Assembly (NCBI GenBank): GCA_012270555.1
Contig: JAAXIC010000049.1
Coordinates: forward strand, 65,136-129,135
Source: Chloroflexota bacterium
GTDB lineage: Bacteria; Chloroflexota; UBA11872; VXOZ01
Direction: 5' to 3'
Length of the DNA: 64,000 bases
Part shown: positions 2,409 through 55,500 of the stretch, in pieces
Layout of the letters: every line of letters starts with the position of its first letter
How positions within the stretch are numbered: position 1 is the first letter of the stretch
Made by a program: the position numbers and the translations under genes
Notes under the pieces: model-generated
Database searches by the model: none
Seen by the model: the letters and a program-made list of their open reading frames with translations, nothing else
Told to the model about the DNA's origin: nothing

Positions 2409-3407
2409 ATGCAGCCGCTGATCGACAGCTTCGGTCGGCAGATCGAAAACCTGCGCATCTCGATAACGGACCGCTGCAACTTTCGTTGCCGCTACTGCAT
2501 GCCCGAAGAGATGATGCAGTGGGTGCCGCGTGATGAAATCTTAACGTACGAAGAGATCGAGCGGCTTGCCCGGCTTTTTGTCCGCCTTGGCATTCGTGAC
2601 ATTCGCATCACCGGCGGCGAGCCAACGGTGCGCAAAGATCTCCCTTACCTCATCAGCCGCTTGCGCCTGATCGATGACCTGGAGAGCCTCTCGATCACGA
2701 CCAACGGCTTCCGTCTCAAAGCGCTGGCCAAGCCCCTGGCCGAGGCGGGGCTTACGCGCATCAACGTGAGCCTGGATAGTCTCGTGCCGGAGCACTTTGC
2801 CTACATCACGCGCAGAAACGCGCTCAACGCGGTGATGGAAGGCCTAGAGGAACTCGAAAAGTACCCTGCCATTAGCCCAATCAAGCTAAACTGCGTCGGT
2901 ATTCGCGGTTTCACGGAGCGTGAGGTGGTGGCGTTCGCTGAGTTGGCGCGCCGCAAGCCCTACGTGGTGCGCTTCATCGAGTTCATGCCCTTGGACGCGG
3001 ACGGCATCTGGCGGGAAGAGAACGTGCTCACGGGACGTGAAATCCTGGATATGATCAACGAGGCGATGCCTGTCCCGCTGGTGCCCATTCCCACCGACCC
3101 CTCCTCGACCTCGCGCGTCTATCAGTTTGCCGACGGCAATGGTGAAATCGGCTTCATTAATCCCGTGAGTGAGCCATTCTGCGCCACGTGCAACCGCATT
3201 CGCCTCACGGCGGAGGGTATGCTGCGCACCTGCCTCTTCTCTGTGCGTGAGACCGACCTGCGCCTGCCCTTGCGCGATGGCGCTACTGACGACGAGCTTG
3301 AGCACATCATTCGCGCCGCTATCTGGCAGAAGGAGCTCAAGCACCGCATCAACGAGGGCGAGTTCTTCCAGCGCGCCAACCGCACCATGTCCCAGATCGG
3401 CGGCTAG
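2409..3407 (+). CDS. moaA: GTP 3',8-cyclase MoaA
   Basis: Radical-SAM enzyme for the first step of molybdenum cofactor synthesis, GTP to 3',8-cyclo-7,8-dihydro-GTP. The N-terminal cluster motif CNFRCRYC binds the SAM iron-sulfur cluster. The second cluster is in the C-terminal half (CATCNRIRLTAEGMLRTC). The chain ends in the double glycine typical of MoaA (QIGG). The length of 332 aa is normal. A good ribosome site (GAGGTAGGA) precedes the ATG. moaC, moaE and the rest are not nearby. The product would serve the molybdenum hydroxylase at 27.3-31.2 kb. Confidence 0.95.
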   Translation: MQPLIDSFGRQIENLRISITDRCNFRCRYCMPEEMMQWVPRDEILTYEEIERLARLFVRLGIRDIRITGGEPTVRKDLPYLISRLRLIDDLESLSITTNGFRLKALAKPLAEAGLTRINVSLDSLVPEHFAYITRRNALNAVMEGLEELEKYPAISPIKLNCVGIRGFTEREVVAFAELARRKPYVVRFIEFMPLDADGIWREENVLTGREILDMINEAMPVPLVPIPTDPSSTSRVYQFADGNGEIGFINPVSEPFCATCNRIRLTAEGMLRTCLFSVRETDLRLPLRDGATDDELEHIIRAAIWQKELKHRINEGEFFQRANRTMSQIGG

Positions 3408-3826
3408 CTCGGCGTCTCGCTTTTCGCGCTCTTCGGCTATCGTCACGTCGGCCTCTCCGGCAAATCGAGCTTCCGCCACCAACGGCCTCTGAGCCCATCG
3501 GTATCTCTTCTTGCACCCTCAACGGTCGGTTCCTGCCTGCCGGCCCCTGGATTGCGACATCCCATTGCCATCGTGTTCCCAAGACACTACAAGGCATGAG
3601 CATCGAGCGAGAGGCCTAGTGGTCCAACTATTTTGGATTGATGGGTAGCGCAGGTTTGTAACCTGCGCAGTTGTCCTGCGCCGTCGGTGACACTTACCCA
3701 TGATTACAATGTTGTTGGACTACTAGTGCAAAGAGCGCTCCCGCCAAGAACCTTGCAGAACTGTGAAAAATACAGCGCGCAAACACAATAGCGGTATACA
3801 TTTTTTCTCTCTTTTTCCTCATTTAG
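3408..3826. other. Intergenic stretch with a MITE-like repeat
   Basis: I see no convincing gene between moaA and the DUF2089 gene. The interval holds the palindrome-containing element at 3616-3726, and an AT-rich stretch leads into the promoter at 3827. Confidence 0.6.
3616..3726. repeat. MITE-like 111-bp element with terminal inverted repeats and a central family-A palindrome
   Basis: The ends are CTAGTGGTCCAACTA and, read from the other strand, CTAGTAGTCCAACAA: 15-base arms matching at 13 positions, both starting with CTAG. Between them (3648-3668) lies the perfect palindrome GCGCAGGTT-TGT-AACCTGCGC, which recurs elsewhere in the window without these outer arms. There is no open reading frame inside, so any movement would need a transposase in trans. 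Confidence 0.5.
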
Positions 3827-3855
3827 TTGACATCTTCTGTGCGCTCTGCTATAGT
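3827..3855 (+). promoter_or_regulatory. Sigma-70 type promoter for the DUF2089/DUF4097 pair
   Basis: TTGACA (3827-3832) and TATAGT (3850-3855) are separated by 17 bases, with an AT-rich stretch upstream. It lies about 50 bases before the ATG at 3905. This is the clearest housekeeping-type promoter in the window. Confidence 0.75.
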
Positions 3856-3904
3856 TTCTAAAGATGAAGGTTAGAATACCTAAACTGTTCGTGGGAGGCA
3901 TGCC

Positions 3905-4306
3905 ATGCGGAACATCTTGGGTAGTTCCCAGTCGCCGGAAGTGCTTGGGCGCTGCCCCGTATGCTCGAGCGAACTCACCGTACAGCGCTTGCGTTGTTCG
4001 TCGTGCAATGTCGCTCTGGAGGGGGAGTTTCACCTCAATCCGTTCAATCGTCTCTCCTCGGAACAGCAACGCTTCGTAGAGATTTTTCTTGTCGCTCGCG
4101 GCAACATGAGCGAGGTGCAAAAGGAGTTGGGTGTCTCTTACCCCACAGTGCGCGCGCGCCTGGAGGAGATCATCAGTCAACTTGGCCACGAACCGGCCTC
4201 AGGTGAAGCTGCCTTACAAGCTGAGCGTCTCAGCACCCTTCAGGAAGTGGAGAGTGGAGAACTCAGCGTTGAAGAAGCCTTACGCCGCCTGGCAAACAGG
4301 GAGTAG
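3905..4306 (+). CDS. DUF2089 family zinc-ribbon/HTH protein
   Basis: The N-terminal zinc ribbon carries two CxxC pairs (CPVC near residue 18, CSSC near 31). The helical part that follows contains the family signature LSSEQQRFVEIFLVARGNMSEVQ and GVSYPTVRARLEEI, an HTH-like segment. The C-terminus has a SHOCT-like SGELSVEEALRRL helix pair that also begins the next protein. GGGAGG precedes the ATG at 3905, which is why I prefer it to the out-of-frame ATG at 3900. The family is found next to DUF4097 proteins and is thought to be regulatory, but its function is not established. It is co-transcribed with the gene starting 6 bases downstream. Confidence 0.85.
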   Translation: MRNILGSSQSPEVLGRCPVCSSELTVQRLRCSSCNVALEGEFHLNPFNRLSSEQQRFVEIFLVARGNMSEVQKELGVSYPTVRARLEEIISQLGHEPASGEAALQAERLSTLQEVESGELSVEEALRRLANRE

Positions 4307-5379: not shown

Positions 5380-5510
5380 GGAGTCCCGATCAGTAAGAGC
5401 GGCCGGTTTTCTTTCAGGTGCTCTTCTCCCCGCACGTCCAGGACTCTAGGCTACCTCCACTCCCTTCTAGGAGCCCTTTGTACAACCCGTGCCGGTAGAC
5501 GAGAAGAACT

Positions 5511-5543
5511 CCCCTCACCCTAACCCTCTCCCTCAGGAGAGGG
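5511..5543 (-). repeat. Family-B palindromic repeat
   Basis: Copy of a dispersed palindrome with the general form CCCCTCACCC-TAACCCTCTCCC-n-GGAGAGGG. It is paired with an oppositely oriented copy 80 bases downstream (5625-5658), so the two could form one long hairpin between two convergent genes. Confidence 0.8.
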
Positions 5544-5624
5544 AACCTGAAGCCTGGGAAAGGGAGCCTGAGACTGAGAGAGGGAACTGGAGCCGATCCG
5601 ATTCACTTGGCTCCACATTCTGCA

Positions 5625-5658
5625 CCCTCTACCCCCGGGAGAGGGCCGGGGTGAGGGG
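5625..5658 (+). repeat. Family-B palindromic repeat, inverted partner
   Basis: This copy reads CCCTCT, a short loop, then GGGAGAGGG followed by CCGGGGTGAGGGG, in the opposite orientation to the copy at 5511. It lies between the DUF4097 gene and the convergent carboxypeptidase gene, where such a fold could also end transcription from both sides. Confidence 0.8.
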
Positions 5659-5719
5659 AAATTGGTGTCGATCCGGCCCAAGGCCACCTGTTTGGCAGAG
5701 TTACGCAAGGGTCTCCTTC

Positions 5720-33937: not shown

Positions 33938-33961
33938 GGTAGCGCAGGTTTGTAACCTGTG
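33938..33961. repeat. Family-A palindrome
   Basis: GGTAGCGCAGGTTTGTAACC with a slightly changed right arm (CTGTG). It is 45 bases before a second copy. Confidence 0.75.
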
Positions 33962-33982
33962 AATGCCTGCCTCTTGCAGCCC

Positions 33983-34007
33983 GGTAGCGTAGGTTTGCAA
34001 CCTGCGC
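33983..34007. repeat. Family-A palindrome
   Basis: GGTAGCGTAGGTTTGCAACC then TGCGC, the second of two neighbouring copies in the gap between the oxidoreductase pair and the sulfatase pair. Confidence 0.75.
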
Positions 34008-42524: not shown

Positions 42525-42829
42525 GCACGCACACTCGATGGTAAGGGCGTCGGTAGCGCAGGTTTGCAACCTGCGCCCGCTCCCGCGCTATCGGAAAGTA
42601 ACGCCACGGACAATTGCCCGCCATTTACATTGGACTACAGACGAGGCGGCACGCACCGCCCTGTAAGGGTACAATAGCCCCGTGCGCCAAAGTGTAAGGA
42701 AAAGCGAAAGGCAGCACAGCACCGCGTGGGAACAGAGTTGCCGTACGTGAAGACGAGAAGCAAGCGCAGCTCTCCTCCTCCCAGGCTAGAGTATGAGTAA
42801 CGTCTATACCGCAGACAAAGGAGCACGTC
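42525..42829. other. Intergenic gap with a family-A palindrome
   Basis: Apart from the palindrome at 42552-42576 I see nothing recognisable in this 305-base gap. Confidence 0.5.
42552..42576. repeat. Family-A palindrome
   Basis: GGTAGCGCAGGTTTGCAACC then TGCGC, with a perfect GCGCAGGTT/AACCTGCGC stem, 27 bases after the sulfatase stop. Confidence 0.8.
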
Positions 42830-51674: not shown

Positions 51675-51818
51675 ACGCTGGGCGCTCGGCGCCGGGCCGC
51701 AGATAGCGGGCATTACGGGCCAAGCCCAGCCCAAGCCTCAATAGAGAGAAGCGGGGAACAAGCCCCAATGTCGTCACATTAAACTAAAGTGGCAATGAAT
51801 ACCGCGCCTCACGTCCCC

Positions 51819-55136: not shown

Positions 55137-55182
55137 CAGCGTGCAGAGGCTGCCGTAGAATACAATTCACAATTGAATACGG

Positions 55183-55500
55183 AAAAGGCGACGATCAGGA
55201 AGAGTACGCTGCTAAGGCGGCCTCCAGAGAGCCGGGAAACGGTGGGATCCCGGTGGTGCGCGGTCAGCGGAATGGGCCTGGGAGCTGTGACCTGAAAGGT
55301 GGCTTGTGCGTAGGCGGGTATGCTGCCCGCACGTGCAGTTGCCGATTAGGCGTCAACGGAACCCCTACCGTAGACTTTGGGGCAAGCATGAAACCATGCA
55401 ATTGGGGAGTGCTTGAGGAAATTAAGCGGGCTGCGCATGCAGCCAAGAAGGGTGGCACCGCGAGACGTGTTCTCGTCCCTTTGGGGACGAGATTTTTGCT
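55183..55500 (+). promoter_or_regulatory. T-box riboswitch, tryptophan-specific
   Basis: Leader of the trp operon. Stem I shows GACGATCAGGAAGAGTACG, CAGAGAGCCGG and GGTGGG elements, then GGAATGGGCC, where TGG (55273-55275) is the likely specifier codon for Trp. The T-box itself, AAGGGTGGCACCGCG, is at 55448-55462. Its TGGC would pair with the GCCA end of uncharged tRNA-Trp, matching the G discriminator base of that tRNA. AAGGG can pair with CCCTT (55477-55481) to form the antiterminator. Uncharged tRNA-Trp should allow read-through into trpE. Confidence 0.93.
55471..55497 (+). terminator. T-box terminator of the trp operon
   Basis: A perfect 9-bp stem TCTCGTCCC/GGGACGAGA (55471-55479 and 55484-55492) with a four-base loop, followed by TTTTT. 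Its left arm overlaps the antiterminator pairing region, as required for T-box control. Confidence 0.92.

Follow-up and report, generated by a model that had tools for sequence, protein, structure and literature searches.

Bacterial MITEs named in the available portion of one survey (PMC3733652) include RUP, NEMIS, Nezha and ERIC, and the same portion already records GTAG REPs together with their RAYTs, Chloroflexi included. A target of YTAR is given for IS5 in the part of PMC10359306 that was accessible. A literature search, in sources partly available as text, returned no description of a shell element with CTAG ends. Positions 3616-3726 of the window, the whole 64,000-nucleotide stretch of Chloroflexota DNA analysed here, very probably hold a non-autonomous MITE of this kind, which has arms of about 32 bp, inserts into CTAG, shows CTAG at both ends and carries a GTAG REP as its cargo (Table 1).

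The preliminary description of this DNA had placed the element at exactly these coordinates, and direct reading finds CTAG at both ends, outer 15-base arms paired at 13 of 15 bases and a perfect inner palindrome, all as described. Taken to 32 bp, the arms match at 25 of 32 positions, whereas 5000 dinucleotide shuffles of the 111-base sequence averaged 8.6 (sd 2.4) and never exceeded 18. At its inner end, the left arm runs into the GTAG-tagged palindrome, GCGCAGGTT-TGT-AACCTGCGC with perfect 9-bp arms. A folding z of -6.5 was obtained for the 131 bases around the copy. The copy lies between a gene that we read from the ORF list as moaA-like (ORF end 3407) and a small gene (start 3905); the ORF list holds no complete reading frame within it, one minus-strand ORF overlapping its tail only. 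Elsewhere in the window, the sole Rfam match is a T-box leader (55182-55483, RF00230, 101.7 bits), and a second dispersed palindromic repeat, CCCTCTCCC ... GGGAGAGGG, occurs at 5509-5660, 31310, 35745, 51889, 53132 and 58711.

Table 1. Positions in the window of the CTAG-ended element, its parts and the solo copies of its inner palindrome.
Feature	Position	Strand	Remark
Complete CTAG-ended copy, very probably a MITE, 111 bp	3616..3726	+	Architecture shared with copies elsewhere in the genome and genus
Left CTAG	3616..3619		Putatively one copy of a duplicated CTAG target, or CTAG with TA duplication
Right CTAG, putative target copy	3723..3726		Read directly
Left terminal arm, 32 bp, CTAGTGGTCCAACTATTTTGGATTGATGGGTA	3616..3647	+	25/32 complementary to right arm
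Right terminal arm, 32 bp, reverse complement CTAGTAGTCCAACAACATTGTAATCATGGGTA	3695..3726	-	
Cargo: family-A GTAG-tagged REP palindrome	3645..3668	+	Same palindrome flanks the RAYT gene in L147
Interior, REP to right arm	3669..3694	+	Second inverted REP here in copies of 163-190 bp
Solo family-A REP, without shell	33939..33962	+	
Solo family-A REP, without shell	33984..34007	+	
Solo family-A REP, without shell	42553..42576	+	

Full-length copies, which the preliminary description had proposed to look for, were found both in the genome of origin (G000, 3.18 Mb, 97% complete) and in its congeners. Further copies in the former lie on contigs C12, C17 (two), C20, C23, C32 and C35, and a reading of C30 added one more; CTAG is present at both ends in seven of the copies in this genome, the window copy included, and one end is altered on C23 and C35. 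Matches to the whole element occur in all six genomes of the genus, weakly in G005, which nonetheless has a copy with both its ends. The 13-base end pattern CTAGTRGTYCRAC has 50 exact matches in these six genomes as compared with 10 for its reversed control. Copies in the genus are 98-234 bp long, with one further copy of 85 bp in which the REP is nearly lost. In the longer copies, L060 and L133 among them, two different REPs stand inverted to each other with GTAG outward, and only these long copies have the two inverted REPs of a REPIN, the window copy keeping one intact REP. With its terminal inverted repeats, its lack of coding capacity, its length of less than about 300 bp and its several dispersed copies, the element has the features of a MITE. 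Variation in the cargo includes the replacement of the REP loop by a second hairpin, CGCACGGGACGTGCG, in L002, L004, L046, L077 and L079, identical in the own genome and in congeners. A common repeat, CCTTCGACAGGCTCAGGA, lies with its variants inside the loop of the REP cargo in L040, L042, L131 and L133, making three nested repeats.

The inner palindrome has a distribution of its own. It had been noted to occur alone elsewhere in the window, and this is borne out by the three solo copies of Table 1, which stand without outer arms; a more diverged copy lies near 51814. The conserved arm is likewise missing beside the palindrome in all 20 palindrome-centred loci of the own genome (L009 to L028), a test with three mismatches having been left unused for these loci since it also fires by chance. 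In the congener G003, a 188-aa frame (L147) that matches the REP-associated tyrosine transposase family (NCBIfam NF047646, E 2.4e-23, above the cut-off) is flanked on both sides by the inner palindrome in inverted orientation; no RAYT was found beside a REP of this kind in the own genome. Because the palindrome occurs solo without arms and flanks a RAYT, it is an independent GTAG REP, and it is the inner palindrome only that combines the GTAG tag, the hairpin, high copy number and the flanked RAYT (in G003). Where it stands by itself, therefore, the palindrome is a solo REP rather than a fragment, and the element consists of a MITE shell with a REP inside. The cargo is accordingly a separate non-autonomous repeat of the kind moved by RAYTs (HUH tyrosine transposases), the long copies carrying a REPIN-like pair. 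The shell may have gained this cargo by insertion of a REP, which would then have been replaced lineage by lineage. Other GTAG-type palindromes, also inverted, flank Y1 genes in L138, L139, L140, L142, L144, L145, L146 and L148; the genus thus holds several REP/RAYT systems, L145 being in the own genome.

To look for empty sites, the two flanks of each of ten copies were fused across a single CTAG and the joints were queried against the genus. The joint aligned in a relative for six of the ten copies, cleanly in five and with a gap in one (L004, in G004). An exact CTAG stands at the empty sites of L135 (in G001) and L104 (in the own genome), the latter site being empty also in G001 with TCAG; the remaining empty sites read CTAA (L040, in G001), CTGG (L006, in G001) and CCGG (L002, in G004). 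The site of L134 is occupied by other repeats in the own genome, those of L003 and L133 aligned on one side, and L114 had no joint-spanning match among the genomes of the genus. At the window locus, none of the five congeners has a counterpart copy, but the entire intergenic stretch differs in all five, so that none offers a clean empty site. The check for empty sites that accompanied the preliminary description therefore succeeded for six of ten other copies and failed for the window copy itself. Filled sites with orthologous flanks are shared by L002 and L046 (G001), L135 and L105 (G005), and L060 and L128 (G001), indicating that these insertions were inherited; G001, with 95-96% identity around moaA, lacks the L040 insertion that the own genome carries, indicating that some insertions are young. 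Several contigs of G006 (L199, L217, L228, L239, L241 and others) break off within a copy, which is what long repeats that are near-identical and recently active should cause. The miniature transposon of 111 bases is genuine and was recently mobile, and of the two options left by the preliminary description, a complete mobile form or a chance nesting, the former is supported by the full-length copies and by the empty sites of sister copies.

The arms of the shell extend well beyond the genus. A scan of contigs of GTDB representatives for the arm pattern, in which about 0.5 matches would be expected by chance on our own estimate, gave 44 stretches. Twenty of these are in Chloroflexota-type MAGs, including relatives of the window, SAR202 and one Dehalococcoidia record; another 20 are in records titled Proteobacteria, Gammaproteobacteria, Oceanospirillales or Woeseiaceae; and the remainder are one in Entotheonella and three in Opitutales. 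The Opitutales matches, which in each of three genomes fall at the beginning of one shared open coding frame and have no partner end, are taken as vertical or chance and were dropped. A shorter pattern matched in all 13 follow-up genomes, as compared with six matches of its reversed control in all 13 together; G008 and G018 have one match each, which is not above the control. The arm consensus is nearly identical across phyla: CTAGTGGTTCAACAACATTGTATTGATGGGTA in the window genus (16 copies), CTAGTAGTTCAACAGCATTGTATTGATGGGTT in SAR202 (1 copy), CTAGTAGTTCAACCAGATTGTATTGATGGGTT in the RHO bins (2 copies) and CTAGTGGTCCAACAAGTTGGTATTGATGGGTT in the proteobacterial long form (2 copies). As cargo, the window genus has a GTAG REP, SAR202 and the RHO bins have CGTC-type hairpins (the tag is our reading), and the proteobacterial copies of 267-270 bp have two long hairpins. 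By this sequence comparison, the 32-bp arms are homologous between Chloroflexota and proteobacterial MAGs, and the hairpin cargo is specific to each lineage. Errors in binning, though possible for single contigs, are insufficient to account for this pattern, since different cargo is found on many contigs.

The element would be moved in trans by a DDE transposase that duplicates a 4-bp CTAG, most likely one similar to that of IS5, with its YTAR target. In G005, an IS5-type element of 1189 bp (DDE_Tnp_1/DUF772) is present in four near-identical copies (L149, L154, L157 and L159) with CTAG or TTAG on both sides, and an enzyme with a YTAR target thus exists in the genus, which favours an IS5-like DDE enzyme as the mover; the terminal repeats of this element, GAAAGGTCTGAACAAC, differ from the MITE arms. 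The CTAG ends of the copies, with empty sites that read CTAG, CTAG and CTAA and also CTGG, CCGG and TCAG, make a 4-bp YTAR duplication a candidate. A transposase sharing the ends of the shell, envisaged in the preliminary description, did not emerge from any of the places searched. PF13546 (IS701-type) and PF13358 (IS630-type, DDE_3) had no match in the six genomes of the genus, and the 14 matches to PF01609 (IS4/IS5-type), in five of the six genomes and none in the own genome, all lack shell ends. Between solitary ends and distant partners, whether in the genus or in other MAGs, there were only truncated copies or frames of ordinary appearance, and plasmids and phages gave short chance-like matches or none (in IMG/VR, none for the arm pattern and two chance-like ones for the shorter pattern). 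A spacing of 797 bp seen in both L204 and L227 was set aside, since the two contigs are almost identical and inspection by eye showed no transposase-like frame. An autonomous partner is not required of every MITE, and we infer that the mover is most likely an IS5-type DDE transposase that is absent today or unrecognised.

Two other classes of enzyme may be weighed against the IS5-like one. Enzymes of the IS630/Tc1 type prefer to duplicate TA within a CTAG target, and a palindromic CTAG with a central TA fits such an enzyme equally well; because CTAG is palindromic, duplication of the four bases and duplication of TA are inseparable. The absence of DDE_3 from all six genomes makes this alternative unlikely. 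It is distinctly improbable that the CTAG arms are sites of a tyrosine (HUH) transposase of the TIRYT/RAYT type, by which one class of enzyme would move both shell and cargo. In its favour are the GTAG REP that forms the cargo and the TIR-flanked tyrosine transposases and degenerate GTAG units joined to unrelated stem-loops that are described in the accessible part of PMC3733652. Against it, the CTAG arm is found, within two mismatches, in none of the 11 Y1 loci of the genus, and other genomes carry the arms around cargo that is not of the GTAG type. Moreover, Y1 enzymes make no target duplication, whereas the inserts have CTAG on both sides and the empty sites have single CTAG-like 4-mers. 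An IS5-like DDE enzyme thus remains the favoured mover of the shell.

Many copies in proteobacterial MAGs are reduced to a 37-bp form, CTAGTGGTCCAACAAGSTTGTATTGATGGACCACTAG, with unrelated flanks. The junction of this form lies at the point where the two arms share TTGATGG and TTGTTGG (L300 has TTGTTGG there), and the differences between arm subfamilies are preserved within G009 (L271 versus L286 and L287). Further deletions (28, 29 and 57 bp) are seen as well. The 37-bp form may be the product of a deletion that joined two imperfect heptamers of the arms, TTGATGG and TTGTTGG, in the manner of nearly precise excision; alternatively, it may itself be a mobile minimal form. Nearly precise excision of Tn10 leaves a short remnant after deletion between short direct repeats within the terminal inverted repeats.

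After the removal of five of 52 rows, namely the nested artefacts L288 (61 bp), L271 (61 bp) and L182 (125 bp) and the orthologue duplicates L128 and L183, 47 copies with intact CTAG at both ends were compared with the 424 other CTAGs in the same loci. In 27 of the 47 copies, the TAG of the element is the stop of a frame of 100 codons or more, as compared with 106 of the 424 controls (Fisher p 1e-5), an excess that becomes smaller (p 0.037) when controls inside frames of at least 200 codons are left out; at a threshold of 200 codons, 26 of 47 copies and 64 of 424 controls lie on a TAG stop. The 37-bp form is on a TAG stop in 13 of 15 copies, and both of its ends serve as stops of two convergent frames in 7 of the 15, an arrangement absent from all 32 longer copies and present in 5 of 424 controls. 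Pfam matches reach near the C-terminal end of several adjoining frames (aldo/keto reductase, AIM24, amidohydrolase, MtrB/PioB), with further matches to HAD hydrolase and AsnC regulator, and in L307 (G006) the convergent frames on either side of the 37-bp unit both match MatE; in one tested set, five of ten adjoining frames had no Pfam match. A 105-codon frame that ends at the window copy is counted among the 27 but is probably no gene, and no stop-codon position is therefore claimed for the window copy.

Because the end of the element is CTAG, TAG is kept after insertion. Copies at gene ends may thus be the ones kept, each CTAG end re-supplying a TAG stop so that the protein would be left untruncated and a 3' hairpin added. 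The excess at stop codons fits targeting and selection alike, and the two cannot be told apart. A broader proposal, that shells across phyla home to CTAG at gene ends and convergent stops, re-supply TAG, take up the REP or hairpin of their host and install 3' hairpins between convergent genes, is offered tentatively and is doubtful as a whole.

It is very improbable that the element is instead a structural or regulatory RNA or DNA element under selection, such as a bidirectional terminator or 3'-end stabiliser, with no transposon involved. Strong folding and the placement of 37-bp copies at stop codons and between convergent frames would suit such a role, but the precise empty sites, presence and absence among congeners and CTAG at both ends would not; moreover, 18 of the 32 longer copies lie away from gene ends, and no T-tract terminator was found within 3300-4000. 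A regulatory or terminator role may be a secondary use of the transposon. Chance nesting of two palindromes, the other option of the preliminary description, is excluded by the recurrence of the same nesting in many dispersed copies of six genomes and by arm pairing above that of the shuffles, and nothing was found in its favour.

The locus thus presents two classes of non-autonomous repeat stacked as shell and cargo, the shell homologous across phyla and the cargo local, and this stacking is a natural test of the joint spread of REPs and MITEs. The excess at TAG stops, which in the 37-bp form takes in convergent ends, suggests a way for a transposon to multiply in gene-dense genomes while leaving genes intact, and the copies at stop codons provide concrete sites for testing an effect on transcription termination.

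Compared with known systems, the element is like the MITEs RUP, NEMIS, Nezha and ERIC in being small, non-coding and dispersed, with terminal inverted repeats and empty sites. Unlike them, its shell carries a foreign REP or REPIN that varies by lineage, has arms conserved between Chloroflexota and proteobacterial MAGs, and shows both an excess at TAG stops and a recurrent 37-bp deletion form. The inner palindrome resembles GTAG REPs and REPINs in its tag and hairpin, its many solo copies and its inverted placement around a RAYT; unlike the usual GTAG REPs, it lies here inside a CTAG-ended shell, the solo REP being without CTAG ends. With the IS5 group, of which L149 is the local example, the element may share a 4-bp YTAR target that includes CTAG, and it differs from L149 in its terminal repeats. 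Finally, the 37-bp form is like the product of nearly precise Tn10 excision in being a short remnant with a deletion between short direct repeats within inverted arms; unlike in Tn10, it is the remnants only that are seen, in proteobacterial MAGs, and the process is inferred from them.
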